From Antiquaquibacter soli (lineage in GTDB: Bacteria > Actinomycetota > Actinomycetes > Actinomycetales > Microbacteriaceae), in NCBI RefSeq assembly GCF_030580675.1, contig NZ_JAUQUB010000002.1, positions 124,001 to 188,000 of the forward strand: DNA of 64,000 nt, written 5' to 3'. The position numbers and the translations under genes were made by a program. How positions within the stretch are numbered: position 1 is the stretch's first letter; each line of letters opens with the position of its first letter. The notes beneath the pieces are model-generated. The model ran no database searches and was not told the origin of the DNA. It worked only from the letters and a program-made list of their open reading frames with translations. Positions 11,187 to 30,776 of the stretch are shown piece after piece.

Positions 11187-11198
11187 TTAACCGGTTTA
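11187..11198. promoter_or_regulatory. LacI-type operator copy 1 (TTAACCGGTTTA)
   Basis: A palindrome with core AACCGGTT abutting the AGGAG ribosome site of the SelA-like gene. It is one of five copies upstream of all transcription units of the 11.2-34.0 kb block. The central CG is typical of LacI-family operators. Confidence 0.8.
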
Positions 11199-11207
11199 GG
11201 AGCAACG

Positions 11208-12344
11208 ATGGACGACGTTCTGCAGCGGATCGGCGTACGCCGAGTGATCAACGCCGTGGGCCCCGCTACGCGCCTAGGGGGCATCGCTCCCGACATCGAG
11301 GTCGTGGAGGCGATGAGGAGTGCCGTGAGCTATCCCGTCCGAATCGACGAGCTGATGAGCGCCAGTGGTCACCACCTCGCCCGGCTTCTCGGAGTGCCGG
11401 CTGTCTACATCACCGCCGGAGCTGCCGCGGGACTCGCCCTCGGCACCGCGGTAGCTATCGCGCGAGGCGACTCAGGGCTGGCTGACTCCCTCCCCCGCAC
11501 CGAGGCCCCTCATGGGATCCTGATCCAGGCAGCCCATCGTGACCCCTACGACCGAGCAGTCGAGGTCGGGGGAGGTCGACTCGTCGCCGTCGGGTACCCG
11601 GAGGGCACTCATCTGGGCGAACTCGAGCGGAGTCTGACGGACGACGTCGTAGCGGTGCTCCACCGACCCGGGCGCCCGGGAAATGGGGCGTCGCTGCGCG
11701 AGGTGGCCAGAGTTGCTCACGAACGAGGAAAACTGGTGCTGGTCGATGCGGCGGTCCACGTCCCCCCGGCCGATCGACTCGCCGCGCTCCTCGATGACGG
11801 TGCGGACCTGGTAGCCATGAGCGGAGGCAAGGCGTTCGGTGGTCCGCAGGCGAGCGGGCTGCTCTGCGGTGCGCCAGAACTCGTATCGCTCGTCGGCCGG
11901 TTCCACCAGGACATGGACGAACGTGCTACCACGTGGCCTCTCCCGAGCGGAGACGCGACCCCGCCCCGCCACGGCGTGGGTCGGATTGCGAAAGTCGGTC
12001 GGGAGCAGGTAGCCGGCCTCGTGGTCGCGGTTGAGAGATATCTCGAGGGGCGATCCACGTGGCTCGATCGCGGCCGCGCCGAGCTGGACATCGCCGAGGA
12101 GACCCTCGTGCGCGCCGGTGTCCCCGTGAGACGCGAGCGACTGCATTCGCTCGACGTCGACATCCTCGAGGTCACAGCCCGGGGGGATCCCGATGTCTTC
12201 ATCCACCGACTGCGCGACCGCGCGGTGCCCGTGTTCGTCGGCGAGTCGGAGGTGTGGCGAGGCGTCTTGACGCTCAACCCGATGGGTCTCCTTGCCGGCG
12301 ACGGTCGGATGCTGGCCGAGGCGATCGTCGAGGTCCGTGGATGA
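11208..12344 (+). CDS. SelA-like PLP-dependent enzyme (DgaE/YhfS type)
   Basis: A 378-residue fold-type I PLP protein of the SelA-like group, which includes D-glucosaminate-6-phosphate ammonia lyase (DgaE) and E. coli YhfS. The N-terminus RIGVRRVINAVGPATRLGG is characteristic, and the likely Schiff-base lysine is in SGGKAFGGPQASG (about residue 205). It is not a selenium transferase: it is about 80 residues shorter than SelA and sits in a catabolic operon. A beta-elimination on an amino- or hydroxy-acid sugar derivative is plausible but inferred. It overlaps the phosphotriesterase-like gene by 4 bp. Regulated by operator copy 1. Confidence 0.75.
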   Translation: MDDVLQRIGVRRVINAVGPATRLGGIAPDIEVVEAMRSAVSYPVRIDELMSASGHHLARLLGVPAVYITAGAAAGLALGTAVAIARGDSGLADSLPRTEAPHGILIQAAHRDPYDRAVEVGGGRLVAVGYPEGTHLGELERSLTDDVVAVLHRPGRPGNGASLREVARVAHERGKLVLVDAAVHVPPADRLAALLDDGADLVAMSGGKAFGGPQASGLLCGAPELVSLVGRFHQDMDERATTWPLPSGDATPPRHGVGRIAKVGREQVAGLVVAVERYLEGRSTWLDRGRAELDIAEETLVRAGVPVRRERLHSLDVDILEVTARGDPDVFIHRLRDRAVPVFVGESEVWRGVLTLNPMGLLAGDGRMLAEAIVEVRG

Positions 12345-13285
12345 GCGACCTGAGCGGTCGGGCGATGACCGTGCTCGGCCCCGTGGACCCGGCCGAACTC
12401 GGTGTCACTCTCACCCACGACCACGTCTTGTTGGATGCCTGGGGCCTGCGGCAGTTGTACGAGGCGATCCTCGACGATGAGTCCCTCGCCATCGAGGAGG
12501 TCGCGCGCTTCAAGGCTGCGGGCGGCGGAACCATCTGCGACCCGACGAACGTCGGCCTCAAACGGGACCCGGCAGCGCTGGCCCGAATCAGCCGCGCCAC
12601 CGGCGTCCACATCCTGATGGGCGCGGGCTGGTATCGAGAGATCGTCTACCCCTCCTACATCGCGGAGGAGACCTCGCAATCCCTCGCCGACCGCCTCATC
12701 GCCGAAGTCGTCGACGGTGTCGACGGGACCGGGGTGAGACCGGGTTTCATCGGCGAGATCGGCACGGAGCGGGGAAGCATCAGCCCCGCGAATGAGCGGG
12801 TCTTTCGCGCGGCCGCTCGTGCACACCGTGCCACCGGCATCCCGATCCTGACTCACACGACCCACTTCGGCGAGCTCGCCCTGGAGCAACTCGACCTGCT
12901 GCAGGAGGAGGGAGTGGATGCCCGGCACGTGGTCATCTCGCACCTCGGGGACCGTCGCGATATCGACTCGATCCTGCCCATAGCGGAGCGCGGAGCCTGG
13001 ATCAACGTCGACAATCTCGCCTTCGTGACCGGCTACGCGCCGGTCTCCTTCCGCGCTGACAATGTCGCGAGGCTGTGCAGCCTGGGTCTTGCTGATCGGG
13101 TGATGCTCTCCAACGACATCTGCGAACTCGGACAGCTCGCGGCATACGGCGGCGTGGGCTACGGAAATGTCGTGGAGCGCTTCCTGCCGATGCTCCGAGA
13201 TCGAGGTGTGAGCGAGGAGGACATCCATCAGATGACTGTTCTCAACCCCGCGCGGGCCTTCGCGTTCGCCGAGGTCGGGTCATGA
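12341..13285 (+). CDS. Phosphotriesterase-family metallohydrolase
   Basis: A 314-residue TIM-barrel hydrolase of the amidohydrolase superfamily, phosphotriesterase/PHP-lactonase group. Metal ligands can be followed: HDH near residue 27, the bridging acidic position in FIGEIGTE, His in ILTHTTHF, His in VISHLGD and the catalytic Asp in LSNDI. The bridging residue is Glu, as in PHP and YhfV, rather than carboxylated Lys as in true phosphotriesterase. Relatives hydrolyse lactones or sugar phosphates. YhfV neighbours a SelA-like protein in E. coli too, so the pairing is meaningful. The ATG overlaps the previous stop. Confidence 0.8.
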   Translation: MSDLSGRAMTVLGPVDPAELGVTLTHDHVLLDAWGLRQLYEAILDDESLAIEEVARFKAAGGGTICDPTNVGLKRDPAALARISRATGVHILMGAGWYREIVYPSYIAEETSQSLADRLIAEVVDGVDGTGVRPGFIGEIGTERGSISPANERVFRAAARAHRATGIPILTHTTHFGELALEQLDLLQEEGVDARHVVISHLGDRRDIDSILPIAERGAWINVDNLAFVTGYAPVSFRADNVARLCSLGLADRVMLSNDICELGQLAAYGGVGYGNVVERFLPMLRDRGVSEEDIHQMTVLNPARAFAFAEVGS

Positions 13286-14289
13286 GGGCGCTCGTGCTGG
13301 TCGAGTACGGTCGACTGGAGGTACGGGAGGTGCCCGACCCCGAACCGCGCGACGGCTGGGCGATTCTCCGGGTGCTCGCGACGGGGATCTGCGGATCGGA
13401 CATCCACGGCTTCACGGGGGAGAACGGTCGGCGATTCCCCGGTCAGGTGATGGGGCACGAGAGCGTCGGCCGACTGACCGCCCCCGTTGGCGGGATGTCG
13501 GCCGGCGACCTGGTTACGTTCAACCCGGTGGTGGGCGGACCGCACGCGTCCCGCTACGCCGGCCGTGAACAGCACGATCCCGGTAAGTGGGTCATCGGCG
13601 TCGACCCGACGCATCACGCCGCGTTCGCCGAGTACGTCGCTGTCCCACGCGACAATCTCGTCCCGGTCGCCCCGGATCTGCCCCCCGCGCTCGGCACTCT
13701 CATCGAACCGCTCGCCGTCGCCGTGAATGGCGTCGGCCGCGCAGGGGATGTGCGGGGCCAGTGGGTGCTCGTTCTCGGAGGGGGCCCGATCGGTCAGGGC
13801 GTCGCCCTCGCTGCGATGCGAGCGGGAGCTTCGGTCATCGTCAGCGAGCCCGATGCGGCGCGCCGCGATCTCTGCGTCCGATTGGGTGCGCTCGTCATCG
13901 ATCCGAACGAAGGCGCTGTCGTGGATCAGCTCACCCGGCGCGGGCACGACGTCACCGTCGCCATCGATGCCGTGGGTTCCTCAGCAACTCTCGCGGATGC
14001 CCTCGCCGTCACGCCACCGGGTTCGACGATCGTGCTCGTCGGGATGGCGTCGCCGGAGATCCGGATGGACGCCTATCGGGTCAGTGTCGGCGAGCGGTCG
14101 GTGGTGGGCGCCTTCACGTACTCGGCAAGCTCGTTCCGGGACGCCGCCAGGTGGGTGTCGGAGGGCGATCGCGCCATTTTCGACGCGCTGATCACCGACG
14201 TCGTCCGACCTGAGGAGGCTCAGAGCGCGTTCGAAGCCCTGGCCGGGGGCACCGGATCGGCGGGCAAGACCGTGGTGGACTTCGACTAG
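13282..14289 (+). CDS. Zinc-type alcohol/polyol dehydrogenase (MDR family)
   Basis: A 335-residue medium-chain dehydrogenase resembling L-idonate/sorbitol dehydrogenases. The catalytic-zinc region is present (GICGSDIHG, GHESVGR) and the NAD(P)-binding motif reads LVLGGGPIGQG (about residues 163-173). The structural-zinc loop that usually has four cysteines (CxxCxxCxxxxxxxC) is replaced by a Cys-free stretch FNPVVGGPHASRYAG, as in some bacterial sugar-acid dehydrogenases. It overlaps the preceding gene by 4 bp and completes a three-gene operon. It probably oxidises a sugar acid or polyol; the substrate is not determined. Its stop shares CTAG with tatB. Confidence 0.8.
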   Translation: MRALVLVEYGRLEVREVPDPEPRDGWAILRVLATGICGSDIHGFTGENGRRFPGQVMGHESVGRLTAPVGGMSAGDLVTFNPVVGGPHASRYAGREQHDPGKWVIGVDPTHHAAFAEYVAVPRDNLVPVAPDLPPALGTLIEPLAVAVNGVGRAGDVRGQWVLVLGGGPIGQGVALAAMRAGASVIVSEPDAARRDLCVRLGALVIDPNEGAVVDQLTRRGHDVTVAIDAVGSSATLADALAVTPPGSTIVLVGMASPEIRMDAYRVSVGERSVVGAFTYSASSFRDAARWVSEGDRAIFDALITDVVRPEEAQSAFEALAGGTGSAGKTVVDFD

Positions 14290-14615
14290 CGCGACGGGGG
14301 AGCGATCTCCGTGGGAGGCTCCGACGAAGCCGCGGCCCGCTGAGCGGCGGGGGGCGCATCGCCGAGCGTCTTCCAGTCGTCGGACAAGGCATCGGCGATG
14401 ATCCGTCGCGGGTTGTACTGACGCGGGTCCACCTTCTTCCAGTCGATATCGGGGAACTCCTCCTCGATGCGCTCCTTGGAGCTGGCGAGCAGTACTCGGG
14501 CGCGTCGAACCGTGCGGCCGAGCAGAGCGGCGAAACCGGTGAGGCGCTCGGGCCCCAGGATGAACCCGGCAATGACCCCGATCACTATGAGCTTCTCGAT
14601 GGTGAGACCAAACAT
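14286..14615 (-). CDS. tatB: Twin-arginine translocase subunit TatB
   Basis: A 109-residue TatB: short periplasmic N-terminus MFGLT, one helix (EKLIVIGVIAGFILGPERL), the GPER hinge and an amphipathic helix, then the actinobacterial DPRQYNPRRII motif. The ATG at 14615 is preferred to a GTG at 14639, because a purine-rich GAAAGG site lies 8 nt upstream and TatB begins MFG. TatB helps TatC recognise twin-arginine signals. It is divergent from tatA with operator copy 2 between them, so both sides of the translocon appear to be under the same control. Confidence 0.85.
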   Translation of the reverse strand: MFGLTIEKLIVIGVIAGFILGPERLTGFAALLGRTVRRARVLLASSKERIEEEFPDIDWKKVDPRQYNPRRIIADALSDDWKTLGDAPPAAQRAAASSEPPTEIAPPSR

Positions 14616-14665
14616 CGCAGGCACCTTTCTCTTCCTCACGCTGAACTGCTATAACTCTATTAGAC

Positions 14666-14675
14666 AAACCGGTTT
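14666..14675. promoter_or_regulatory. LacI-type operator copy 2 (AAACCGGTTT)
   Basis: A perfect palindrome in the spacer between tatB and tatA, 16 nt before the tatA ATG. TATAAC at 14650-14655 is a possible -10 box for tatA. Same core as the other four operators of the block. Confidence 0.8.
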
Positions 14676-14691
14676 AGTAGAAGGAGTACAG

Positions 14692-14919
14692 ATGTTCGGA
14701 AACGCACTCACCGGGTGGCATTTGGTAATCGTGCTCGCGGTCGTCCTCTTGCTGTTCGGAGCGGCAAAGCTACCCGCACTCGCGAAGAGCGTGGGGCAGT
14801 CGGCGCGTGTCTTCCGCGGCGAGATGCGCTCGATGAAGTCGGACGATGCAGCAGGCACCGAGGCATCGCCCGGCACCGCGGCCGAGGAGTCGTCGCCGGC
14901 AGAAGCCGTGCGGGAGTGA
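14692..14919 (+). CDS. tatA: Twin-arginine translocase subunit TatA
   Basis: A 75-residue TatA: MFGNALTGWH, one helix, then the FGAAKLPALAKSVGQSARVFRGEM amphipathic region and a low-complexity acidic tail. TatA oligomers form the folded-protein translocation path. The frame is open upstream, but the ATG at 14692 with GAAGGAG 10 nt before it is the only start giving a normal TatA. The gene is followed after 1 nt by tatC. Confidence 0.9.
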   Translation: MFGNALTGWHLVIVLAVVLLLFGAAKLPALAKSVGQSARVFRGEMRSMKSDDAAGTEASPGTAAEESSPAEAVRE

Positions 14920-14920
14920 G

Positions 14921-15748
14921 ATGACGGCACGCCGTGCGCGCGCCGCCACGGGCATGCCGCTGCGCGAGCACCTGCGAGAGCTTCGGCGGCGGCTCGCGGT
15001 CTCCGCCGCCGCGCTCGTGGTGGCCGCTGTTGTCGTGGCCTTCTTCTCCACTACGGTGATCGAGCTCCTGGCCGCGCCGTTGCATGAGATCGAGGGTGCT
15101 GCCGAGTCCGCCATCAACTTCTCGAGCGTGACCGCAGCTTTTGACCTCCGCGTCCGAATCGCGATCACCGGCGGAATCGTGCTGTCCTCACCCGTCTGGC
15201 TGTACCAGGTGTGGGCATTCATCGTGCCCGCACTCAAGCGCACTGAGCGACGCTACGCCATCGGCTTCGGGGTGTCGGTTCCTCCGCTGTTCTTCGCTGG
15301 CGCAGCAGCGGGTGCCGCTGTCTCCCCTCACATCGTGCAGCTCATGGCGACCTTTGCTCCGTTCGGCTCCACCTTCCTGCTGCAATCGGACGTGTACTTC
15401 GACTTCGTCCTCAAACTCGTCATCGTGATAGGGGTGGCCTTCGTTCTCCCGGTGTTCCTGGTGGCCTTGAACTTCGCTAGCGTGATCTCGGGCAAGGACA
15501 TCCTCAAGGGATGGCGCGTGGCCATCCTCGTGATCACCCTCTTCACCGCTACCGCGACGCCCGCGGCCGATGTCCTATCGATGGTGATCCTCGCGGTTCC
15601 ACTCGTGGGGCTGTACTTCGGGGCGGTGCTCATTGCTGTCCTCCACGACCGTCGCGCGGCCAAGCGACTAGGCTTCTTGCTCACCGACACGGACGGTGCG
15701 GCCGACGCATCTGCGACCGGCGCCCAGCGGCACGGCGCTGCCGGGTGA
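14921..15748 (+). CDS. tatC: Twin-arginine translocase subunit TatC
   Basis: A 275-residue protein with six predicted membrane helices and TatC hallmarks: PLREHLRELRRRL at the N-terminus, LSSPVWLYQVWAFIVPALKRTERR in the second cytoplasmic region, and FVLPVFLVALNFASV late. TatC binds the RR motif of Tat signals. It lies in a tatA-tatC-lacI run. Core Tat genes of actinobacteria normally sit with housekeeping genes, so this set in a sugar block is probably a second copy, although the rest of the genome is not visible. Confidence 0.92.
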   Translation: MTARRARAATGMPLREHLRELRRRLAVSAAALVVAAVVVAFFSTTVIELLAAPLHEIEGAAESAINFSSVTAAFDLRVRIAITGGIVLSSPVWLYQVWAFIVPALKRTERRYAIGFGVSVPPLFFAGAAAGAAVSPHIVQLMATFAPFGSTFLLQSDVYFDFVLKLVIVIGVAFVLPVFLVALNFASVISGKDILKGWRVAILVITLFTATATPAADVLSMVILAVPLVGLYFGAVLIAVLHDRRAAKRLGFLLTDTDGAADASATGAQRHGAAG

Positions 15749-15803
15749 CGCCCGTCACCGGCAGCAGGGGCAGAGCGAGTCGGACGAAGCGGAAGGGTGA
15801 CCA

Positions 15804-16988
15804 ATGGCTCGAGTGACGGTCGCCGACGTCGCCGACGAAGCCGGCGTCTCCCGCGTCACCGCGAGCAAGGTCCTCCGCGGCGGAGAGGGGGTGTCGCCCT
15901 CGACGACCCAGCGCGTCCTCGACGCTGCCGCCGCGCTCGGCTACGGTCGCGAGCAGTCCGCCTCGGGAGAGGGCAAGCGAGTGACCATCGCCGACATCGC
16001 GAGCGCCGTCGGGCTCTCCAAGGGCTCAGTCTCGTTCGCCCTCAACGGCCAGGCGGGAATCTCCCCCGAGAATCGCGAGAAGATCCTCGAGACTGCACGT
16101 CAGCTGGGGTGGCGACCGCACAGCGCAGCGCGCGCACTCTCGAGCTCACAGTCGAAGGCAATAGGCCTCGTCCTCGCGCGAGACGTCGACACTCTCGGGT
16201 CGGAGCCGTACTTCATGAGGCTCATCGCGGGGATCGAGGCGGTGCTGTCGAAGGAGTCCATCGTCATGCTCTTCCAGACGGTGCCCTCGATCGAGGCGGA
16301 GATGGCGGTGTACGACGACTGGTGGAGCGAACGCCGCATCGATGGGCTGCTGCTCAACGACCTGCGCGTGGACGACCCGCGGCTCCCGTACCTTCAGGGG
16401 CTCGGCATCCCTTCTGTTTTCGCCGGGCTCCGGGAAGGCTCGGGGACGGTGTCCGCCGTGTTCCACGAGGAGGCCCCGGGAGTAGAGGAGACCGTGCTGC
16501 ACTTGCGCGACCTCGGTCACCGCTCCATCGGCCGGGTCGCGGGACCCGCGGAATTCGCACACATCGCCGAACGCGGGCAGGCATTCGCGCGATTGTGTTC
16601 CGAGTTGGGGATCGAGCACTACGAGAGCATCGAGACTGACTACTCGATGGAGCAGGGAGCCGAGGCGACCAGATACTTGCTCGCGCGCCCCGAGCGACCC
16701 ACCGCGCTCGTGTACGACAACGACATCATGGCGCTCGCCGGTCTGCGCGAGGCGCAAGCGACCGGTCTGTCGATCCCGCAGGACCTCTCCATAGTTGCGT
16801 GGGACGACTCGTTGTTTTGCCAAGCCTCGAGCCCGAGCCTGACGGCCGTGGCCCGCGACATCCGAGCGTTCGGGGAGCAAGCGGCCACGTCCCTCCTCGA
16901 CCTCATCCGCAGCGGTGCGCCGGATACCGTTCGCGAGCCTCCCGGTCGGATCGTGGCTCGGGACAGCACCGCGCCGCCCCCGTCCTGA
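15804..16988 (+). CDS. LacI-family regulator with two tandem N-terminal HTH domains
   Basis: A 394-residue LacI-type regulator, about 50-60 residues longer than usual. The extra length is a second DNA-binding domain: HTH 1 at residues 4-48 (VTVADVADEAGVSRVTASKVL) and HTH 2 at 60-105 (VTIADIASAVGLSKGSVSFAL). Only HTH 2 is followed by a hinge helix (RPHSAARALSSS). A periplasmic-binding-protein-like effector domain follows from about residue 118. It sits 55 nt after tatC in the same direction and is the obvious candidate to bind the five AACCGGTT operators, including its own. The effector is probably a sugar from the block's pathway. Confidence 0.88.
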   Translation: MARVTVADVADEAGVSRVTASKVLRGGEGVSPSTTQRVLDAAAALGYGREQSASGEGKRVTIADIASAVGLSKGSVSFALNGQAGISPENREKILETARQLGWRPHSAARALSSSQSKAIGLVLARDVDTLGSEPYFMRLIAGIEAVLSKESIVMLFQTVPSIEAEMAVYDDWWSERRIDGLLLNDLRVDDPRLPYLQGLGIPSVFAGLREGSGTVSAVFHEEAPGVEETVLHLRDLGHRSIGRVAGPAEFAHIAERGQAFARLCSELGIEHYESIETDYSMEQGAEATRYLLARPERPTALVYDNDIMALAGLREAQATGLSIPQDLSIVAWDDSLFCQASSPSLTAVARDIRAFGEQAATSLLDLIRSGAPDTVREPPGRIVARDSTAPPPS

Positions 16989-16997
16989 CCACAGTTA

Positions 16998-19451
16998 TCA
17001 CCTGTTGCGAGCGAGGTAGTCGAACAACGAGGTCACCGTCCGATCGCCGCGCGCGACCCGGTCCAGATCGTCGCGATCGACGCCCGCTCCAACGGTCAGC
17101 GGGACCACGCACTGCTCTCCCGGGAGGATGGTGAGCAGTCGTGACGACGCGGTCACTCCGGCCACCTCGAGCTCCGGACGCACGAGCACCTCGCGGGCGA
17201 TCGCCGACGTCGCCGTCACCACGAGGGAGGCCACCCCGTTTTCGACCACGACGCTGGACTCGAGTCCCGGATCCGGGATGCCCGCGCTCCCGTCCGCGTC
17301 GGCGAAGGCGAAGCGGCGCCTCCCGAGCAGCGTCACCTCGAGGGCCTCGGCGGCGCCGAGAGAGGCATCCACGAACGAGGACGCTCCGGCATCGAGGCGC
17401 AGCGAAGTGGCCGTCGTGAACTGGGTCGTGCCGGAGGACGACAACCCTCGCATGCCGAGGTCGGCCTCGAGCCGAGAGCGACCGCGATTGTGCACGAAGA
17501 CTCGTCGACCGCCCGCCTCGCCGATGAGGGAGACGTGGAGGTCGTCGAAGGAGTCGGCGATGGCGTGCAGGACGGGCTTGGGCGTACCCGCGACGTCGAG
17601 CGCGGACCAGGAGATGGCCGGCCAGATGTCGTTGAGCTGCCACACGATGGCGCCTCGGCACCGGGGCCACAGCGAGGCCCAGTGGTCGAGGGCGGCGGTA
17701 ACGGCGCGAGCCTGGATGACCGAAGTGATGTAGTGCCAATCGGCGAAGTCCTCGGTCACCGGGAAGTGCCGCGAGATCCCGAGCTGCAGCTTGGCCACGC
17801 CATCCGCCGCCTTCTGATGGAATACGAGGCCGGCCGCGTGCGGACCGTCGAGCGCGTCGGAGATGGATGCAGTGAGAACCGGTGTACTGGCGGGCCCCTG
17901 CCATCCGAACTCGGAGACAAATCGAGGCGCGTCGTCGCGGTAGTGGATGTAGTCGCGGTTGTTCCACATCTCCCAGGCGTGATGAGTCTGGTGGTCCGGG
18001 TCGTTCGGCTCGACATTCCAGCCTCCCGACCACGGGCTCCCGGGGTAGTAGGGCTGGTCCGGCGCGAGCGAAGCGATGACGCGCGGGATCACGTCGAAGT
18101 AATACCCGGCGCCCCAGGGTCGGTGGTCGAGCTCGTTCTCCCAGTTCAGCGCCTCGTGCAACCACAGATTCTCGTTGTTGCCGTTCCAGAGGACGAGGCT
18201 CGGATGACTGGCGAGGCGCGTGACATTCTGGCGGGCCTCGTTCGCGATGTCCTCGCGCATAGCCGCGGTCTCCGGATACGCGCCGCACGCGAAGGCGAAG
18301 TCCTGCCACACGAGGATGCCGAGTTCGTCGCAGGCGTCGTAGAAGTCGCGACTCTCGTACGTGCCCCCGCCCCAGACGCGCACGATGTTCGAGTTCGCCG
18401 CCACCGCGGCCTCGAGAAGGGTGCGGACCGCAGTGCGGTCGGCGAGGCCGGGCAGCAGGGTCGCGGGAATCCAGTTGAAGCCGCGCGCCAACACGGGCTC
18501 GTCGTTGATAACCAGGCCAAACGCGCCATCCGAACTCGTCGTGTCGAGCTCGATCGTTCGAAAACCGATGCGGCGCTCGTCGCGATCGAGCGGCACTCCG
18601 CTGCCGTCAAGGAGCTCGACCTCGAGATCGTAAAGGGCAGCGGCGCCCGCTCCGCGCGGCCACCAGCGCGCGGCTCCGGGGGCCTTGACCACGAGGATCA
18701 CCTCCTGCTCGTCGCTCGCCATGACCGCCGAACCCTCAACGTCCAGGCCCGTTCCGCGCACTCGCGCCCGCACAGAGAGCGACGCATCCACCCCGGGCTG
18801 GCGCGCAATACCGACCCGTACCTCCACCGACGGCTCTCCTGGTCGGTTCGTGCTCGCCACGACCGAGTCGAGCCGGGCGGTGCTCCATGTCCTCAGGTGC
18901 ACAGGTCGCCAGAGCCCGAGGTCGGCGACGCGCGGTCCCCAGTCCCACCCGAAGCTGCACGCCATCTTTCGGACGTACGTGTAGGGCGTCTCGTCGAAGG
19001 AACCGGGGTACGGCCCGACCTCGCGCTCGACGTCATCGGCATAGGCGAAGGGCGAGAGCAGTGCCACCTCGAGCGAGCAGGTCCCCCCGCGGTAGCCCGA
19101 GACGTCGATGCTGTGGCTGAGGTGCATGTTGCGCGACTCAAGGACTCGCGCCCCGTCGATCGAGACATCGGCGATCGTGTCGATGCCCTCGAACACGAGC
19201 TCGGTCACCTGCCCTGGCTCATCGGGGATCGCCAGCGAACGCGTGAGGGTCCAGTCGCTGCGGCCAACCCACTGGATCACCGTTTCGTTCTGCTCCACGA
19301 ATGGGTCCGGGATGATCCCCTGGTCTTGCAGAGTTCCGTGCACGCTTCGCCCGTCGGTCGCCAGCCTGGTGCCGGCCGTGACCGTGGCCCCTTCCGCGGG
19401 CTGGGTGAGTTCGAGAATCCACTCTCCGTCGAGTTCGGTCCTGCGCAGCAC
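16998..19451 (-). CDS. Beta-mannosidase, GH2 family
   Basis: An 817-residue cytoplasmic enzyme that would release terminal beta-linked mannose. Domain order fits GH2 beta-mannosidases: sugar-binding beta domain, immunoglobulin-like domain, TIM barrel, C-terminal beta domains. The acid/base Glu is in LWNGNNEN (about E427) and the nucleophile in RFVSEFGW (about E514). No signal peptide is present, so it acts on imported oligosaccharide. The GTG at 19451, 11 nt after AAGGAG, is preferred; an in-frame GTG at 19487 would add 12 residues. It is divergent from the importer operon, with TATAAT (complement of 19501-19506) and operator copy 3 upstream. Confidence 0.87.
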   Translation of the reverse strand: MLRRTELDGEWILELTQPAEGATVTAGTRLATDGRSVHGTLQDQGIIPDPFVEQNETVIQWVGRSDWTLTRSLAIPDEPGQVTELVFEGIDTIADVSIDGARVLESRNMHLSHSIDVSGYRGGTCSLEVALLSPFAYADDVEREVGPYPGSFDETPYTYVRKMACSFGWDWGPRVADLGLWRPVHLRTWSTARLDSVVASTNRPGEPSVEVRVGIARQPGVDASLSVRARVRGTGLDVEGSAVMASDEQEVILVVKAPGAARWWPRGAGAAALYDLEVELLDGSGVPLDRDERRIGFRTIELDTTSSDGAFGLVINDEPVLARGFNWIPATLLPGLADRTAVRTLLEAAVAANSNIVRVWGGGTYESRDFYDACDELGILVWQDFAFACGAYPETAAMREDIANEARQNVTRLASHPSLVLWNGNNENLWLHEALNWENELDHRPWGAGYYFDVIPRVIASLAPDQPYYPGSPWSGGWNVEPNDPDHQTHHAWEMWNNRDYIHYRDDAPRFVSEFGWQGPASTPVLTASISDALDGPHAAGLVFHQKAADGVAKLQLGISRHFPVTEDFADWHYITSVIQARAVTAALDHWASLWPRCRGAIVWQLNDIWPAISWSALDVAGTPKPVLHAIADSFDDLHVSLIGEAGGRRVFVHNRGRSRLEADLGMRGLSSSGTTQFTTATSLRLDAGASSFVDASLGAAEALEVTLLGRRRFAFADADGSAGIPDPGLESSVVVENGVASLVVTATSAIAREVLVRPELEVAGVTASSRLLTILPGEQCVVPLTVGAGVDRDDLDRVARGDRTVTSLFDYLARNR

Positions 19452-19500
19452 GTCGTGTCTTCTCCTTGGGTCGATGCGCCGGACCACCCGGCTGAGGAAA

Positions 19501-19544
19501 ATTATACAAACCGGTTTGACATATTCGATACCATGGCCCAGTAT
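19501..19544. promoter_or_regulatory. Divergent promoters with LacI-type operator copy 3
   Basis: The palindrome CAAACCGGTTTG occupies 19507-19518. On the plus strand TTGACA (19516-19521) overlaps the operator and CAGTAT follows after 17 nt. On the minus strand TATAAT (complement of 19501-19506) abuts the operator. One bound repressor could therefore block both the mannosidase and the importer. Confidence 0.7.
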
Positions 19545-19602
19545 CTGATTTCAGCGATCTCCGGCACCGGAGAGCCGCGGCCCCCAATACAAAGGAGTTG
19601 AG

Positions 19603-20922
19603 ATGGAAGTACCCCGCACGTTTCTTTCCGCCCAGGCTTCGCGGCGTGGCTTCCTTGCGGGCGGCCTTGCGGCCGCCGGCATGGGGCTGCTCGCCGCCTG
19701 CACGCCTGGCGGCTCGCAGTCGAAGAGCACCGAGATCCCGGTGATGATGAACTACTCGGCCGCATTCGAAAAAGAGTTCCTTCGTGTCACCCAGGGCTAC
19801 GAACGCGCAACCGGCAACACGGTCGATCTTCTGAACATCGCGGCCGCCGACCAGTACGCCACTAAGCTCAAGACGCTCGCGCTCGCCAAGCAGCTTCCCG
19901 CGTTGTACTACGTGGCGAGCTTCGACCTCGGCACCCACATCAAGAACGGCTGGGTCCAGGACCTCACCCCCTACATCGAGCGCAACGAGGACGTTGTGCA
20001 GTCCGCCGACTTCTTCCCGGCCGTCGTCTCGCAGACGTCCCGCGACGGCAAGATGTACGGACTCTCGGACGGTCTTTCGTCCTACGGCATGTACGTCAAC
20101 AAGACGATGTTCGACGAGCTCGGCATCCCGCTGCCCGACGACGACAACTGGACCTGGGACGACTACTTCGACCTGACCGAGGCGTTCAAGCTCACCGATG
20201 GTGGTCGACAGACCCGCTGGGGCGGGCTGGCGAACCATGGGAGCTGGGCCTTCCGCGGGATCTTCTCCGCCAACGGGGGGCAGGTATTCAGCGATGACCT
20301 CTCGGAGTGCATCATCGCCAACGATGAGAACATCGCCACCGTCGAGCAGCTCCGCGCCGCGGCGAAGCGCGGCTCGGTGCCCGACCCCGGGGGCCTGCCG
20401 AGCGGGGTCGACCCGTTCGCAAGCGGCATCCTCGCGATGGTGATGGATGGCTCCTGGTATGTTCAGGGGGCTCGCGACTCGATCGGCGACAAGTTCGAGT
20501 GGGACGTCCTCAAGCTCCCGAAGGGCTCGACGGGTCGCCGCGATGTCGCGGTCGCTACCGGAACCTACGTGATGAGCCGGGACACGGAGAACACCGAGAC
20601 TGCTTTCGACTTCCTGTCGTACTACACGTCGGCGACCATCCAGGACAGCATCCCCTTCCTGCAGCTCGGCACCGTGCAGCCGCGCGTCCAGCAGGAGAAG
20701 GACTACCAGGAGCGCTCGAAGCTCGAGGACCTGCCGCCGGCGAACCGGCTCAATGTGTTCCCGTGGCAGATCCAGAACGACGCCGGCGACCTGCCGTACC
20801 CGGACTACTGGACTGCCTTCGAGACGGTGTGGTTCAACCGACTGATCTCGCTCTTCACGGGACCGGACAGCGCCAAGACCGTTCTCGAGCAGATCCAGGA
20901 AGAGACGAACCGCCAGCGCTAA
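19603..20922 (+). CDS. ABC sugar importer, Tat-dependent lipoprotein solute-binding protein
   Basis: A 439-residue family 1 extracellular solute-binding protein. The N-terminus has a twin-arginine signal, SRRGFLAGG at residues 13-21, a hydrophobic stretch, and a lipobox LAAC with the acylated Cys at residue 33. It should therefore be folded before Tat export and then anchored by lipid. The body carries the usual features for sugar binding (YYVASFDLGTHIKNGWVQDL, LSDGLSSYGMYVNK). A GGAG-like site precedes the ATG. It is followed by two permease genes and controlled by operator copy 3. The likely ligand is a manno-oligosaccharide or related glycoside, by context. Confidence 0.88.
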   Translation: MEVPRTFLSAQASRRGFLAGGLAAAGMGLLAACTPGGSQSKSTEIPVMMNYSAAFEKEFLRVTQGYERATGNTVDLLNIAAADQYATKLKTLALAKQLPALYYVASFDLGTHIKNGWVQDLTPYIERNEDVVQSADFFPAVVSQTSRDGKMYGLSDGLSSYGMYVNKTMFDELGIPLPDDDNWTWDDYFDLTEAFKLTDGGRQTRWGGLANHGSWAFRGIFSANGGQVFSDDLSECIIANDENIATVEQLRAAAKRGSVPDPGGLPSGVDPFASGILAMVMDGSWYVQGARDSIGDKFEWDVLKLPKGSTGRRDVAVATGTYVMSRDTENTETAFDFLSYYTSATIQDSIPFLQLGTVQPRVQQEKDYQERSKLEDLPPANRLNVFPWQIQNDAGDLPYPDYWTAFETVWFNRLISLFTGPDSAKTVLEQIQEETNRQR

Positions 20923-20943
20923 GCGGCGGTCGAGAGGAACCCG

Positions 20944-21894
20944 ATGAGCACCACCCGGCTGGGTATGGAAACGATGGTGGGCGCCGCGAGGCGCCCCAGG
21001 AGGACCGCGGGCCCCCTGCAGCGGCGCGAAGCACGCGTCGGCTGGCTATGGATCCAGCCGTGGCTCATCGGGTTCCTCGCATTCACGGCAATCCCTTTCG
21101 GAGCGGCATTCGTGATGTCGCTGACGAACTGGTCCCCCGCGGGCGCCGAGTTCATCGGGTTCGACAATTACGTGAGGATGTTCACGGACGACCCGCTGTT
21201 CTGGCAGGCGATCAAGGTGACCTTCGTGTTCGTCCTCCTCTACCTGCCCCTCAGCATCGCTCTCGGCCTCGGCGCGGCAATGCTCATGAACCAGAAGTTC
21301 GTGGGCGTCGGGGTATTCCGCACGATCTACTACCTCCCCTCGGTTCTCTCCGGGGTCGCGGTCGTCGTGCTCTGGAGCTTCGTCTTCCACCGCGAGTTCG
21401 GCGTGGTCAACCTCGCGCTCGGCTACCTCGGCATCCCGCCGATTCCGTGGCTCCAGAGCTCGTTCTGGGTCATCCCCGTTATCGTGATCATGCAGCTCTG
21501 GGGCGTCGGCGCCTCGATCATCATCTACCTCGGAGGGCTGCAGGGCATCCCCACCGAGCTGTACGAGGCGGCCAGCCTCGATGGCGCCGGGTGGTGGCGC
21601 ACCTTCCGCAGCGTGACGCTCCCGATGATGTCGCCGATCATCCTTCTGCAAGCGGTGATCGGCCTGATCGGGACCTTCCAGATCTTCACCCAGTCGTTCG
21701 CGCTGACGCGCGGCGGACCCGACTACGGGTCGTACTTCCTGTCCCTCTACATCTACGACACGGCCTTCGGGCAGCTGAAGCTCGGATATGCGTGCGCTCT
21801 CTCGGTCGCGCTCTTCGCGATCATCCTCTCGCTCACCGGGTTGTTCTTCGCGGTCTCCCGATCGCGCGTCTACTACGCAGGAGCCAAGGACTGA
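20944..21894 (+). CDS. ABC sugar importer permease, MalF/UgpA type
   Basis: A 316-residue permease with six membrane helices. The EAA loop that docks the ATPase is clear (ELYEAASLDGAGWWRTFRSVTLPMM). The N-terminal REARVGWLWIQPWLIGFLAFTAIPFG is typical of the CUT1 sugar family. It follows the binding-protein gene by 21 nt and overlaps the next permease by 1 nt. No ATPase gene is present in the operon. Confidence 0.92.
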   Translation: MSTTRLGMETMVGAARRPRRTAGPLQRREARVGWLWIQPWLIGFLAFTAIPFGAAFVMSLTNWSPAGAEFIGFDNYVRMFTDDPLFWQAIKVTFVFVLLYLPLSIALGLGAAMLMNQKFVGVGVFRTIYYLPSVLSGVAVVVLWSFVFHREFGVVNLALGYLGIPPIPWLQSSFWVIPVIVIMQLWGVGASIIIYLGGLQGIPTELYEAASLDGAGWWRTFRSVTLPMMSPIILLQAVIGLIGTFQIFTQSFALTRGGPDYGSYFLSLYIYDTAFGQLKLGYACALSVALFAIILSLTGLFFAVSRSRVYYAGAKD

Positions 21895-22739
21895 TGCGCT
21901 CGCTCACCCGAACCAGCCGTCGTCGCATCGCCATCTTCGCGACGCTCGTCGTCCTCACCGCGGGTTCGATCCTCTATCTCGGCCCGCTCGGGTGGATGAT
22001 CAGCACGGCGCTCAAGACGCCCGACCAGATCTACGATCTTCCGATCCGCTGGATCCCGGATCCCGTCGACTGGGGTAACTTCGTCGAACTCTTCACGGAG
22101 GTGCCGTTCGCCCAGTACATCGGGAACACCGTCGTGCTCACTGCGCTCGGCGTGCTCGGAAGCATTACCGGCAGCTCCTTGGCCGCCTACGGGTTCGCGC
22201 GCTTCCGGTTCCGTGGTCGCAACGCCCTCTTCGTCGTCATGCTCAGCACGATGATGATCCCGGTGTGGGTGACCATCGTGCCGTCGTACGTCTTCTTCGG
22301 CGAGATCGGGTGGCTCGATACCTACCTGCCGATCCTCGTGCCCGCCTTCTTCGCCACCCCCTTCAACACGTTCCTGCTCCGGCAGTTCTTCTTGTCGATC
22401 CCCCAGGAGCTCGACGAGGCGGCGCGCATCGACGGGGCCGGGTCGGTGCGGATCTTCTTCCAGATCATCCTCCCGCTGTCGGTGCCGGCACTCATGATGG
22501 TCGGCCTGTTCTCGTTCCTCTTCTTCTGGAACGACTACCTCGGCCCCCTCATCTACCTTCAGTCGCAGGAGCTGTACCCGCTCTCGCTCGGAGTCGCCAA
22601 CTTCGTCGGTACCTACAACCAGAACTATCCGCTCATGATGATGGCGGCGATGGTCTCCATGCTGCCCTGCATCGCTCTGTTCGCGATCGCCCAGAAGTGG
22701 TTCATGCAAGGGATCGTGATCTCGGGTGTGAAGGGGTGA
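21894..22739 (+). CDS. ABC sugar importer permease, MalG/UgpE type
   Basis: A 281-residue six-helix permease, with the CUT1 second-permease features GPLGWMISTALKTPDQIY near the N-terminus and EAA loop ELDEAARIDGAGSVRIFFQIILPL. The frame is open far upstream, but the ATG at 21894 overlaps the previous stop (TGATG) and gives the normal length. It pairs with the preceding permease, probably using a shared MsmK-type ATPase from elsewhere. Confidence 0.92.
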   Translation: MRSLTRTSRRRIAIFATLVVLTAGSILYLGPLGWMISTALKTPDQIYDLPIRWIPDPVDWGNFVELFTEVPFAQYIGNTVVLTALGVLGSITGSSLAAYGFARFRFRGRNALFVVMLSTMMIPVWVTIVPSYVFFGEIGWLDTYLPILVPAFFATPFNTFLLRQFFLSIPQELDEAARIDGAGSVRIFFQIILPLSVPALMMVGLFSFLFFWNDYLGPLIYLQSQELYPLSLGVANFVGTYNQNYPLMMMAAMVSMLPCIALFAIAQKWFMQGIVISGVKG

Positions 22740-23782
22740 CCGCGCCCCGGGCCGTCGTGCTGAGCGCCGGGGCGTGGTCGCAATCGACGCACATCCCGGC
22801 ATTGCGGGAGGCGGGCGCCGAGGTAGTTGCGGTCACGAGCCTCTCACTTGAGCGGGCTGCCGCGATCGCCGACCAGTTCGGGATCCCGTCGGCCTTCGAC
22901 GACCCTCGCCTTGCGCTCGACGCCGAGCCCGACATCGCGGTGATCGCGGGACCGCCCGTCTCGCACCTCGATCAGGCGCTCGCCGCCATCGAGCGGGGCA
23001 TCGCCGTCCTCGTGGAAAAGCCGATGGCCCTGACCGGCGAGGAGGCCCAGCGCATCGCCGTCGCCGGCGAGAGCGCCGGGGTGCCCGTCCTGGTCGGGTT
23101 CACCTGGTCCAGTGCCGAGCTCTTCGCGCGTGCCCGCGACCTCATCCGATCAGGGGCGCTCGGTCGGGTGGAGCACGCGTCTTGGTCCATCCACGCGAAC
23201 ACTCGGCAACTTCTCCTCGGCAGCCCGGTCGCAGCCTGGGACCCGGATGCCCGCTCCGAGTCGTCGACCTACACCGACCGCTCGCGCTCCGGCGGCGGTG
23301 TCGGTGCGGTGACGATGTGCCACCTTCTGAGCGTCGCGCACTGGGTGCTCGGAAGCAGTGTCGCCTCGGTCGCCTGCGAGACCTACGACGGTGCCGCGGG
23401 GCTGGACCTGCACATGTCGGCACTCGCGTCCTGGGCATCCGGGGCGTCCGGGGTGCTCGTCGCGACATCCACGCAGGTGCACGGCGCGCCCACCCGGTGG
23501 TTCGCCGAGATCCGGGGCAGCGCCGGGGACCTGTCGATCGACACCCTCACCGGCGAGTTCTCGTTCGTCCCCGCGGAGGGCGCCGGTGGCTCCTCGGTCG
23601 ACCCCGAAGCGGGCCGGCCCGACGTGCGATCACCCACGCGTGCGCTCGTCGCCTCCTGGTCTGGTGAACGGGTGCCCAGCGCGATGTCCGCCCGTCTCGG
23701 GGTCGCCGTGACGCGGACGACCGATGCGCTATATGCGAGCGCCCGCTCGGGTGGGGCTCCGACGCGAGTGGCCACCGGATGA
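22736..23782 (+). CDS. Gfo/Idh/MocA-family NAD(P)-dependent oxidoreductase
   Basis: A 348-residue two-domain dehydrogenase. The N-terminal Rossmann fold has an unusual glycine loop (LSAGAWSQSTHIPAL) and the C-terminal domain follows the family EKP motif (VLVEKPMAL, about residue 97), whose Lys binds cofactor and substrate. These enzymes oxidise sugars or sugar acids, often at C3. The GTG start overlaps the permease stop. It is probably an early step on the imported sugar; the substrate is not known. Confidence 0.82.
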   Translation: MTAPRAVVLSAGAWSQSTHIPALREAGAEVVAVTSLSLERAAAIADQFGIPSAFDDPRLALDAEPDIAVIAGPPVSHLDQALAAIERGIAVLVEKPMALTGEEAQRIAVAGESAGVPVLVGFTWSSAELFARARDLIRSGALGRVEHASWSIHANTRQLLLGSPVAAWDPDARSESSTYTDRSRSGGGVGAVTMCHLLSVAHWVLGSSVASVACETYDGAAGLDLHMSALASWASGASGVLVATSTQVHGAPTRWFAEIRGSAGDLSIDTLTGEFSFVPAEGAGGSSVDPEAGRPDVRSPTRALVASWSGERVPSAMSARLGVAVTRTTDALYASARSGGAPTRVATG

Positions 23783-24549
23783 CGGCGACGATCACCGGCG
23801 TCCGAGTCGCCTCCCTGTCGGTCCCCCGCCACTTCGCCCTCATGGGGGAGCTGGACGGGGCAGGTTCCGTCGAGCTCGACTTTGTCGTGTGGTCGATCCG
23901 CACCGACGACGGCGTCTGCCTCGTCGACACAGGACTGCCGCGCGGTGAAGACTTCGCCCACCTCGACGACATGAACTCCGGTGGCGAGGACCGCTGGCGG
24001 TTCCGGGACGTGCGCAGCGTCGGGGAGGCGCTCGACGACCTCGGAGTCGCGCCCGCCGAGGTGGATGCCGTGCTCCTCACCCAGCTCGTCACCTACTGTT
24101 CCGGCGGGCTCGAGGAAGGCCTTTTCCCGCACGCGCGGATCGTTCTCGCCCGCGCGGGCCTCGAGGAGTACCTCGCGGGCGGAGTGGGGCATCCGCCGAC
24201 GTCGTTGTACGTCACGCCGGGAGGCTGGCGAGCGATCGGTGAGGCGGCCGCTCAGGGGCGGCTGGATGTGGTCGACCGACGGCACCGGGTTGTGCCGGGC
24301 GTCGAGTTCGTCGTGACGGGAGGCCACCACCCCGCCTCTGCGTCGGTGCGCGTGAGCACGGACGACGGCAGGGGGATCGCGCTCATGGAGACCGCGTTCC
24401 TGCAGGAGAACGTCGAGACGTCGCGGCCCATCGGCATTGCAGAGTCGGCGGCGGATGCGCGTCGCGCCGTGGTCGAGGCCCGCTCGGAGGGCTTCGAGGT
24501 CGTCGCGATGCACGACCCGCAGCACCGGCAGCGGTTCGCCCCGCGCTAG
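23779..24549 (+). CDS. Metallo-beta-lactamase-fold protein with a degenerate metal site
   Basis: A 256-residue MBL-fold protein similar in outline to N-acyl-homoserine-lactonase-like enzymes. The N-terminal strand pattern and VCLVDTGL are intact, but the metal motif HxHxDH after the second strand block is replaced by TQLVTYCSGGL, losing nearly all expected ligands. The later GGHHPAS and METAF segments keep only part of the second half-site. It may be non-catalytic, use another metal arrangement, or act on a lactone by a different mechanism. It overlaps the oxidoreductase gene by 4 bp, so it serves the same pathway. Its stop shares CTAG with the convergent gene. Confidence 0.7.
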   Translation: MTATITGVRVASLSVPRHFALMGELDGAGSVELDFVVWSIRTDDGVCLVDTGLPRGEDFAHLDDMNSGGEDRWRFRDVRSVGEALDDLGVAPAEVDAVLLTQLVTYCSGGLEEGLFPHARIVLARAGLEEYLAGGVGHPPTSLYVTPGGWRAIGEAAAQGRLDVVDRRHRVVPGVEFVVTGGHHPASASVRVSTDDGRGIALMETAFLQENVETSRPIGIAESAADARRAVVEARSEGFEVVAMHDPQHRQRFAPR

Positions 24550-25571
24550 CGCCGCACGAGCACCGCGTCGCGAACGCAGTGCTCGACGGTCAGCGCGCTA
24601 CCGGCGATGCGCGCGACGACGACGTCGCACGGGGAGTCGAAGGACAGGATGCCCGCACCGTCGAGTCCGACGGCGAGAGCGGGAGTGCGCGTCGCCGCCT
24701 GCAGGGCGTCGGCCCACGGCATCCCGGCCGCTACGATCCGCCCGATGACGGTGGGCAGATCGACCGCGGCGTGGGTCGAATAGGCGTGCAAGTCCGTGCT
24801 GATGGTGTCGGGCGGGAAGCCCTGATCGATCGCTGCGCGGGCGATCGCCGGGTCGAACCCCGATACCCCGTGCCCCACGTCGAACAGCACGCCGCGCTCT
24901 CGGGCGCGGCGCACCGAGGGGCGGATGCGACCGTTCTCGATGAGGGAGTTGCCCGCGAAACCTGTGAAGCAGTGGGTGACGATGTCGCCGGCGCCGAGAG
25001 TCCGCACGATCGTGTCGATGGACGCCGGCTTCGGCCCGAGGTGCACCATGAGTGGCGCGGCGGCTCGATCCGCCGCACGCCGGGCCGCCGCGAGCGCGCG
25101 AGTGGTGAAGCGGCCTCCGACGTTCGCGGAGGCGCGCACCTTGACCCCGACCGCGAGCCCGGGATGCTCCGCGATCGTGCGCACCACGAGTTCCTCGTCG
25201 AGGTACTCGGGCGAGCGCAACTCGCCGCGGCGCTGGATGCTCGTCGTGCCAATGCTCGAGATGTTGACGAACGCCCGAAGCCGCGTCCGGCTGCGCAGCG
25301 CGATGGCTGCGAACGCCCCGAACAGGTCGCCGCCGGCGCTACCTGCATCGACCATTGCCGTCACCCCGCTCCGCTCGGCGGCCTCGTCTGCGGATACACC
25401 CAGATCCTGACCTGAGAAGACGTGGGTATGGAGGTCGACGAGCCCGGGGAGGAGCACGGCGTCATCGAGTGTCCCGGCCCCTGAGGCGGTGCCCAGAGCG
25501 ACGTCGTTGTCGACTCGCTCGAGGCGTGACCCGCTGACGACCAGCGGGCGCCGGAGCAGAAGCTCAGGCAC
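24546..25571 (-). CDS. Amidohydrolase/deacetylase-family metallohydrolase
   Basis: A 341-residue member of the amidohydrolase superfamily, close to the EF_0837/Atu3266 group (annotated as deacetylases of N-acetylated hydroxy acids). It has the HxH metal motif in GLVDLHTHVF, a likely bridging Lys in VGVKVRAS, His in MVHLGP and THCFTG, and the final Asp in ISTDLHAYS. The group often travels with SelA-like proteins, matching this block. The GTG at 25571 overlaps the upstream stop by 8 bp and is preferred to longer starts whose translation looks random. The last gene of a three-gene minus-strand operon. Confidence 0.75.
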   Translation of the reverse strand: MPELLLRRPLVVSGSRLERVDNDVALGTASGAGTLDDAVLLPGLVDLHTHVFSGQDLGVSADEAAERSGVTAMVDAGSAGGDLFGAFAAIALRSRTRLRAFVNISSIGTTSIQRRGELRSPEYLDEELVVRTIAEHPGLAVGVKVRASANVGGRFTTRALAAARRAADRAAAPLMVHLGPKPASIDTIVRTLGAGDIVTHCFTGFAGNSLIENGRIRPSVRRARERGVLFDVGHGVSGFDPAIARAAIDQGFPPDTISTDLHAYSTHAAVDLPTVIGRIVAAGMPWADALQAATRTPALAVGLDGAGILSFDSPCDVVVARIAGSALTVEHCVRDAVLVRR

Positions 25572-27000: not shown

Positions 27001-27019
27001 GGGCATCCTTCGCAATGGA

Positions 27020-28552: not shown

Positions 28553-28621
28553 CGATTCCCTCTGAGTCTCCCGTTACTTCATGGTCGCGGGCATCCACAT
28601 CCGCGGCAAGAAGGCTACTAC

Positions 28622-28645
28622 TTTATAAACCGGTTTGTCTATCAT
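28622..28645. promoter_or_regulatory. Divergent promoter with LacI-type operator copy 4
   Basis: AAACCGGTTT lies at 28627-28636. TATAAA on the minus strand (28622-28627) and TATCAT on the plus strand (28640-28645) flank it, so the operator lies between the -10 boxes of the glycosidase and RidA operons. Confidence 0.7.
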
Positions 28646-28660
28646 GTCCCTGGAGGAGAA

Positions 28661-29041
28661 ATGACCATACCTATCATCGTCGGCCGAACCGCCGAGGCCC
28701 CGGCACCCGCCGGCCCGTACTCGCAAAGCGTCCGAATCGGATCACTCATCATGTGCTCGGGGCAAGCCGGATTCCTGCCCGACGGCACGCTGGCCAACGG
28801 GATCGAGGAGCAAACCCGTCAGACCTTCCGCAACCTGCTCGTGACGCTTGCCGCGGCGGGCGGCGTGCCGGAACGCGTCGGACACGTGCGGGTCTACCTC
28901 ACCGATACCGCCCACTTCGGCATCCTCAACGACGTATACCGCGAGTTCTTCAGCGAGCCCTATCCCGCGCGCACCACGGTCTACGTGGGTCTGCCCGCGG
29001 GGCTCCTCGTCGAGGCCGACCTTCTCGCCGAAGCCTCATGA
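28661..29041 (+). CDS. RidA/YjgF-family protein
   Basis: A 126-residue RidA-family protein (enamine/imine deaminase or related hydrolase). The family core is visible: GPYSQSVRIGSLIMCSGQ, then PARTTVYVGLPAG with the substrate-binding Arg, and a C-terminal Glu. A strong GGAGGAG site precedes the ATG. In catabolic operons RidA relatives often clear reactive enamines made by PLP enzymes, which fits the SelA-like protein of the same regulon; this link is inferred. Confidence 0.85.
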   Translation: MTIPIIVGRTAEAPAPAGPYSQSVRIGSLIMCSGQAGFLPDGTLANGIEEQTRQTFRNLLVTLAAAGGVPERVGHVRVYLTDTAHFGILNDVYREFFSEPYPARTTVYVGLPAGLLVEADLLAEAS

Positions 29042-30728: not shown

Positions 30729-30737
30729 CCGGCGATG

Positions 30738-30770
30738 CCGGTGGAGGGATGCGTCCGCTCCCTCCACCGG
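30738..30770. terminator. Bidirectional terminator hairpin
   Basis: A perfect 12-bp stem (30738-30749/30759-30770) with a 9-nt loop lies between the convergent FAH and secreted-glycosidase genes, which leave only 48 nt between them. No clear U tract on either side. Confidence 0.7.
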
Positions 30771-30776
30771 CCCGTG

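Follow-up and report, generated by a model that had tools for sequence, protein, structure and literature searches.

Genes of the accessory tat set

The twin-arginine translocation (Tat) machine exports folded proteins, and a cell is commonly assumed to have a single, general one. The 64-kb stretch analysed here (the window), a part of contig C7 in the 3.22-Mb genome of Antiquaquibacter soli (14 contigs, rated 100% complete), encodes a predicted TatABC set lodged within a cluster of carbohydrate-utilization genes. The putative tatB gene (14286..14615, minus strand; 109 residues from the ATG at 14615), whose 3' end overlaps the end of a convergent dehydrogenase gene (13282-14289), is divergent from tatA (14692..14919, plus strand; 75 residues), which is followed by tatC (14921..15748, plus strand; 275 residues). 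Between tatB and tatA lies an exact copy of a palindrome resembling LacI-type operators, ACAAACCGGTTT (14664..14675). This arrangement had been described in a first-pass annotation of the window and is indeed present, with TatA (PF02416, 52.5 bits against a cut-off of 21; TIGR01411, 55.6 bits against 53.9) and TatC (PF00902, 180 bits against 25.1; TIGR00945, 160.8 bits against 132.7) both scoring above their Pfam and NCBIfam cut-offs. The TatC protein (TatC2 hereafter) also matches the solved TatC chains 4hts, 4b4a and 9dzz, retains 51 of the 54 residues that are invariant across the housekeeping TatCs of the family Microbacteriaceae, and is 51% identical to the housekeeping TatC of its own genome. 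These matches place the two products in the TatA and TatC families, and transport of twin-arginine cargo is the activity predicted for them. TatB stays below the cut-offs of both NCBIfam models that it matches (NF002377, 53.3 bits against 96; TIGR01410, 25.1 bits against 56.5) and has no Pfam match at E 0.001. In tblastn comparisons with relatives, open reading frames (ORFs) that match it were found at 38 of the 50 accessory tatC loci (38-58% identity), as against one of 50 housekeeping loci.

The first-pass annotation had proposed a second, dedicated translocon, and the window genes are indeed not the only tat genes of the genome, a complete housekeeping set being present on contig C1. There a tatA-tatC pair at 1,321 kb adjoins the genes for a helicase and a WYL-like protein, and tatB sits apart from it at 757 kb. 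As the genome thus holds a full tatA-tatC pair elsewhere, together with a better-scoring TatB (97.3 bits, versus about 53.2 bits for the window copy), the window set is the accessory one. Both sets comprise the same three components, TatB of the window being a putative one, as do the housekeeping sets of the family, but they differ in context, the housekeeping genes lying beside the helicase and WYL-like genes with tatB apart, and the window genes lying in a sugar cluster with an operator of their own. The TatB motif DWKKxDPRQYxPRRI was considered as a mark of accessory sets and rejected, since the housekeeping TatB of the same genome carries it too. A layout as in the window, with a tatB-like gene divergent directly upstream of tatA-tatC, is also seen at the housekeeping locus of one relative (locus L064 of genome G023).

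A binding protein with a Tat-lipoprotein signal

The gene at 19603..20922 (plus strand) encodes the solute-binding protein of an ATP-binding cassette (ABC) importer (PF13416, 99.8 bits; PF01547, 95.5 bits) with the Tat-lipoprotein signal SRRGFLAGGLAAAGMGLLAAC. The protein begins MEVPRTFLSAQASRRGFLAGGLAAAGMGLLAAC, in which a twin-arginine motif (SRRGFL) is followed by a hydrophobic stretch and a lipobox cysteine (LLAAC). The signal reported in the first-pass annotation is therefore real; it has the signature of a Tat-dependent lipoprotein, and Tat dependence of the protein is predicted. The annotation's contrast with the other importer of the window holds as well, in that the binding protein of the latter (gene called from 38646) has no twin-arginine motif. 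The genome encodes 36 PF01547 binding proteins, and inspection of their N-termini singled out the 19603 protein as the only one with [STN]RRxF; a looser Tat-like motif occurs in 4 of the other 35, quite convincingly in one of them (L265, SRRHLL). Among the called genes of the cluster, read by eye, its signal is the sole export-type twin-arginine signal found. The protein has no match in any other of the 398 family genomes at E 1e-40, with at most four candidates scored per genome, and a search of genome contigs recovered only three distant relatives, with 23-41% identity in the best segment.

Operator-like sites and a LacI-family regulator

The tat set and the importer are connected by the operator-like palindrome, of which a second exact copy, ACAAACCGGTTT, lies at 19506..19517 between the genes for a divergent glycoside hydrolase and the binding protein. 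A third (28625..28640, exact 12-mer on the minus strand) precedes a RidA-like gene at 28661 and a divergent ORF starting at 28552. The first-pass annotation had placed the tat genes and the binding protein under the same operator; the operator sequence is indeed common to the two, yet the binding-protein gene has a separate copy, 4.8 kb away from that of the tat genes. These three are the only exact copies of ACAAACCGGTTT in the 3.22-Mb genome, where about 0.08 would be expected by chance (assuming 68% G+C), and the reversed control pattern has no occurrence in it. Allowing one mismatch adds a single further place (C12:22261). The pattern ACAAACCGGTTTNNTA, with up to three mismatches, gives six matches in the window, where shuffling gives a mean of 0.26; as two sites were matched on both strands, the six correspond to four sites. 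A weaker operator-like site, TAACCGGTTT (11188..11197), stands before the gene at 11208.

The gene following tatC (15804..16988, plus strand) encodes a LacI-family protein with two tandem LacI helix-turn-helix (HTH) domains (PF00356, two matched stretches; PF13377), and is the obvious regulator, which would bind the operator-like sites. The cluster thus has the features of a predicted LacI regulon, namely a regulator gene within it and palindromic operators with a central CG before its genes. NCBIfam LacI-family models align to the regulator only from about residue 58 onward. Among the homologues listed, most likewise align from about residue 42-59 on and a few begin earlier, some of them at 20-29; the two early-starting homologues inspected in other genomes (L263, L264) have a single HTH. 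The three exact operators also have in common a left-hand extension (ATTAGAC, ATTATAC or GATAGAC, preceding AAACCGGTTT), so that the site seems to reach further on that side, and it is conceivable that the extra DNA-binding domain of the regulator reads this extension.

Accessory tat sets in related genomes

The family sample comprised 398 genomes, of which 392 have TatC matches and 54, including that of the window, have at least two; each of the nine sampled congeners lacks a second TatC match. From the 53 multi-TatC genomes that remain when our own is left out, 100 of 115 TatC places were fetched, of which 50 are housekeeping and 50 accessory, the latter coming from 42 genomes by hand count. 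The 15 unfetched places are mostly fragments or weak matches, and include one second identical-scoring match (G009) and one full-length match (G072, contig C203). A locus was called accessory when no neighbour in the fetched stretch matched the helicase (HelY) at more than 50% identity, a rule by which loci at contig ends (e.g. L086) may be misfiled. Tat signals were called from our own gene calls with regular expressions in place of SignalP, the motif classes having been set after examples had been seen.

With the same regular expression applied to both kinds of locus, 27 of the 50 accessory loci but 1 of the 50 housekeeping loci have a Tat-signal gene no more than 9.5 kb away. In the family, accessory tat sets thus tend to adjoin genes with predicted Tat signals. 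Two cargo families are the commonest. A dioxygenase-like lipoprotein (PF00775, one member scanned) adjoins 16 accessory sets and bears [ST]RR in 16 of 16 (L080, L106, L107, L110, L114, L116, L117, L119, L121, L124, L127, L129, L133, L134, L135, L137). A ferritin-like protein (PF13668, one member scanned) occurs in 10 accessory loci with 11 genes, all with DRR after a long n-region (L042, L052, L054, L061, L067, L071, L077, L095, L099, L105). The difference persists when the loci of these two families are left out (16 of 24 accessory versus 1 of 50 housekeeping loci). Counting the two families in raises the number of accessory loci with a Tat-signal neighbour to 42 of 50, a figure that has no like-for-like housekeeping control. 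Outside the family, 11 of 282 class-wide genomes (hand count) have at least two TatC matches, and 18 places were fetched from nine of the 11. A Tat-signal ORF is nearby in six of the nine tatC places that have no housekeeping context (L246, L248, L250, L252, L254, L256, L258, L260, L262) versus none of the nine that have one, two of which (L247, L249), cut by contig ends, were assigned from the WYL neighbour alone. At two of the outside places (L252, L256) a ferritin-like ORF, recognised by a similar signal only, lies beside the tat set. A tblastn search of the nine outside accessory places with the permeases and binding protein of the window gave no match over about a third of the query.

Neighbours read by eye place eight accessory loci of the family in sugar gene clusters (L069, L074, L076, L093, L104, L112, L113, L118). 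Six of these (L069, L076, L093, L104, L112, L118) contain an importer whose binding protein has a twin-arginine lipoprotein signal, and they also have LacI-like genes (L093, L104, L112, L118) or IclR-like genes (L069, L076) by eye. On one strand of L112 are encoded a binding protein, two permeases, a GH32 enzyme, a PfkB kinase, tatC, tatA, tatB and a second GH32 enzyme, the N-terminus of which holds FHRRALFQG; L113 is a near-twin of this locus, cut by a contig end. L093 similarly carries on one strand a binding protein with the twin-arginine motif, two permeases, a GH127 enzyme, tatB, tatA and tatC, and L074 has permeases and a glycoside hydrolase bearing twin arginines.

The pairing was tested on the binding proteins near accessory sets, with the window left out, against a background of 109 proteins (35 from our genome and 74 from eight family genomes). 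The L104 binding protein, which falls below the profile threshold and has only DUF3502 in Pfam, was added by hand; that of L069 has no Pfam match, but matched our own binding-protein profile. A Tat-like signal is present on 6 of 10 binding proteins near accessory sets versus 8 of 109 in the background (p = 1.4e-4), on 4 of 8 when near-duplicates are merged (p = 0.004), and, with a stricter motif, on 4 of 10 versus 4 of 109 (p = 0.0016). The rows are related and the p-values are therefore rough.

Origins of the accessory TatCs

A tree of 101 TatC rows (the accessory TatC of L067 left out) interleaves accessory and housekeeping proteins, with 18 changes of label in the best tree, of which at least 10 are forced by well-supported branches. 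This rejects a single ancient accessory clade. The nine sugar-linked rows, including the window, are likewise not one clade, needing seven changes, at least four of them forced (in a quicker tree). The TatCs of L112 and L113 are sisters of the housekeeping copies from the same two genomes, that of L074 falls within the housekeeping clade of its own genus, and that of L093 pairs with the housekeeping TatC of the window's genome. These placements suggest that tat sets were taken up into sugar clusters on several occasions. TatC2 clusters with TatCs from a single other genus (95/85). The TatCs of the 16 dioxygenase-linked sets, together with two other accessory TatCs, form one supported group of 18.

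Functional interpretation and its alternatives

It is rather probable, judging from gene order, operators and signal peptide, that an accessory TatABC has been built into a LacI-controlled carbohydrate cluster, where it would be co-induced with the binding protein of the cluster's importer and export it. In the presence of the inducing sugar the shared operators would be vacated by the repressor, for which the LacI-family protein encoded at 15804 is the simplest candidate, and tatB, tatA-tatC and the importer genes would be expressed together. Fresh solute-binding lipoprotein (SRRGFL...LLAAC), already folded, could then pass through the additional TatABC complexes and, lipid-anchored on the outside, would feed the importer. 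We infer binding of these operators by the LacI-family protein, induction by the sugar, and transport of the greater part of the binding protein by the accessory set and not by the housekeeping one, the benefit lying in specificity or in capacity. Dedication of the set to the 19603 protein is plausible, and the comparative pairing in relatives speaks for it.

Several observations pull the other way. Another binding protein of the same genome (L265, at C1:986557) has a convincing Tat signal (SRRHLL) with both tatC genes elsewhere. Binding proteins therefore appear to have a housekeeping export route, and housekeeping Tat may export the 19603 protein too. In all, 8 of the 109 background binding proteins have Tat-like signals away from tat sets, which indicates that housekeeping Tat probably exports binding proteins. 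At one accessory locus (L130) the sugar importers nearby have binding proteins devoid of a Tat-like signal. The pairing weakens without the hand-added L104 protein (5 of 9 versus 8 of 109, p = 7e-4; merged 3 of 7, p = 0.018; merged with the stricter motif 2 of 7, p = 0.04), and the strictest motif, [STN]RRxF, was rejected as a discriminator (1 of 10 versus 1 of 109, not significant). Nor is there a simple excess of importers beside accessory sets: binding proteins occur in 9 of 50 accessory and 0 of 50 housekeeping loci, and their density (36 in 3.22 Mb) predicts about 0.2 per 19 kb, matching the 9 of 50. A scan beside two of the operators found no sigma-70-like promoter, and the long branch of TatC2 (1.46) could reflect relaxed selection.

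Some of these facts would fit a second set that merely raises the total Tat capacity for a strongly induced cargo, the two sets being interchangeable. The shared 51 of 54 invariant residues, the interleaving of accessory and housekeeping TatCs with at least 10 forced changes, the normal twin-arginine signal of the 19603 cargo, and the twin-arginine binding protein encoded away from both tatC genes all agree with such interchangeability. The frequency of pairing (27 of 50 versus 1 of 50) suggests a selected link between cargo and machine, but does not separate capacity from specificity, and we regard pure capacity as rather unlikely. An improbable alternative is that the tat genes are dispensable passengers of a horizontally gained cluster, with housekeeping Tat doing the work. 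Horizontal gain is itself suggested by the binding protein, with no match in any other of the 398 genomes at E 1e-40, together with lowered G+C in parts of the cluster, which is 0.665-0.674 in four 4-kb bins (12001-24000, 28001-32000) and 0.703 in one, the remaining bins of the window having 0.680-0.725. The absence of a second TatC match in the other nine genomes of the genus and the long TatC2 branch would also suit passengers, but the reading frames are intact, 51 of 54 invariant residues are kept, an operator is retained between tatB and tatA, and tat sets seem to have been recruited separately elsewhere. Finally, it is very improbable that the set serves some other cargo encoded outside the 64-kb window and that the signal of the binding protein is coincidental. 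The Tat-signal search did cover the called genes of the window only, and 8 of 109 background binding proteins bear such signals anyway, but the shared operators link the accessory tat genes to the importer and have no exact match outside the cluster.

Co-induced export of the importer's binding protein can be extended to a wider proposal, possible but tentative, in which duplicated tatABC genes have repeatedly become inducible modules linked to a cargo in Actinobacteria, the window set being a sugar-gated translocon specific for its importer's binding protein and built only in the presence of the sugar. If this were true, the cargo of an accessory Tat set would be predictable from its neighbourhood (dioxygenase-like lipoproteins, ferritin-like proteins, binding proteins, glycoside hydrolases). 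The natural duplicated sets linked to cargo offer many separate tests of cargo preference by TatABC versus added capacity, a question for which the published cases that we met are Bacillus TatAdCd and TatAyCy. A natural sugar-switched Tat system might also serve the export of folded proteins.

Relationship to known Tat systems

The first-pass annotation considered it new for a second translocon to be inducible and matched to a single cargo, but B. subtilis provides a precedent. As described in passages of PMC3068169, phoD lies upstream of tatAd-tatCd, phosphate starvation induces all three genes, and secretion of PhoD is strictly TatAdCd-dependent; a constitutive TatAyCy set is present besides (passages of PMC3068169 and PMC3827258). 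As in that system, the genome studied here has a second Tat set besides the housekeeping one, linked to a likely cargo gene, and the exact operator and the twin-arginine lipoprotein signal place a predicted Tat cargo gene in the same putative regulon. Co-induction by a nutrient and strict cargo dependence are results for TatAdCd in these passages and predictions from sequence for the window set. The two also differ in that the Bacillus set is a minimal TatAC under phosphate control with a phosphodiesterase as cargo, and that of the window an apparently full TatABC with LacI-type operators and an ABC-importer lipoprotein. Given the tatB-like gene divergent from tatA, the window set may work like the TatAdCd type but is not a member of it.

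The passages of PMC3827258 further report that about 5% of surveyed species have at least two tatC genes and propose specialised sets. Among Actinobacteria they name extra tatC genes in Xylanimonas, Nakamurella and S. hygroscopicus, comparable to that of the window genome, and suggest specialised secretion where a species has several. The gene neighbourhoods in those passages are examined for Bacilli, whereas the present case is an actinobacterial sugar importer cluster. For E. coli, a passage of PMC3305326 refers to a paper that, by its title, concerns constitutive expression of the tat genes. Our searches of open-licence papers, read as titles and abstract openings apart from the passages named, brought up nothing on accessory tat sets lodged in clusters for sugar import. 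What is new here is the predicted LacI regulon, the sugar-binding lipoprotein as likely cargo, the apparently full TatABC and the repeated recruitment.

Other genes of the cluster

The cluster contains, upstream of the tat set, a three-gene run on the plus strand (11208..14289) that comprises a pyridoxal phosphate enzyme (11208-12344) that matches aminotransferase class V weakly, short of the Pfam cut-off, a phosphotriesterase-family protein (12341-13285) and the zinc-type dehydrogenase (13282-14289) whose end meets that of tatB. Divergent from the importer on the minus strand is a glycoside hydrolase of family 2 (GH2; 16998..19487; PF22666, PF00703), beta-mannosidase-like by eye. On the plus strand the binding protein is followed by two ABC importer permeases (20944..21894 and 21894..22739; both PF00528) and a Gfo/Idh/MocA oxidoreductase (22736..23782; PF01408). 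Poorly classified hydrolases are also present. Two long ORFs at 25564-28552, neither over a Pfam cut-off and one with no match at all, are perhaps uncharacterised glycoside hydrolases. As to the substrate of the cluster, the GH2 gene hints at beta-mannosides.

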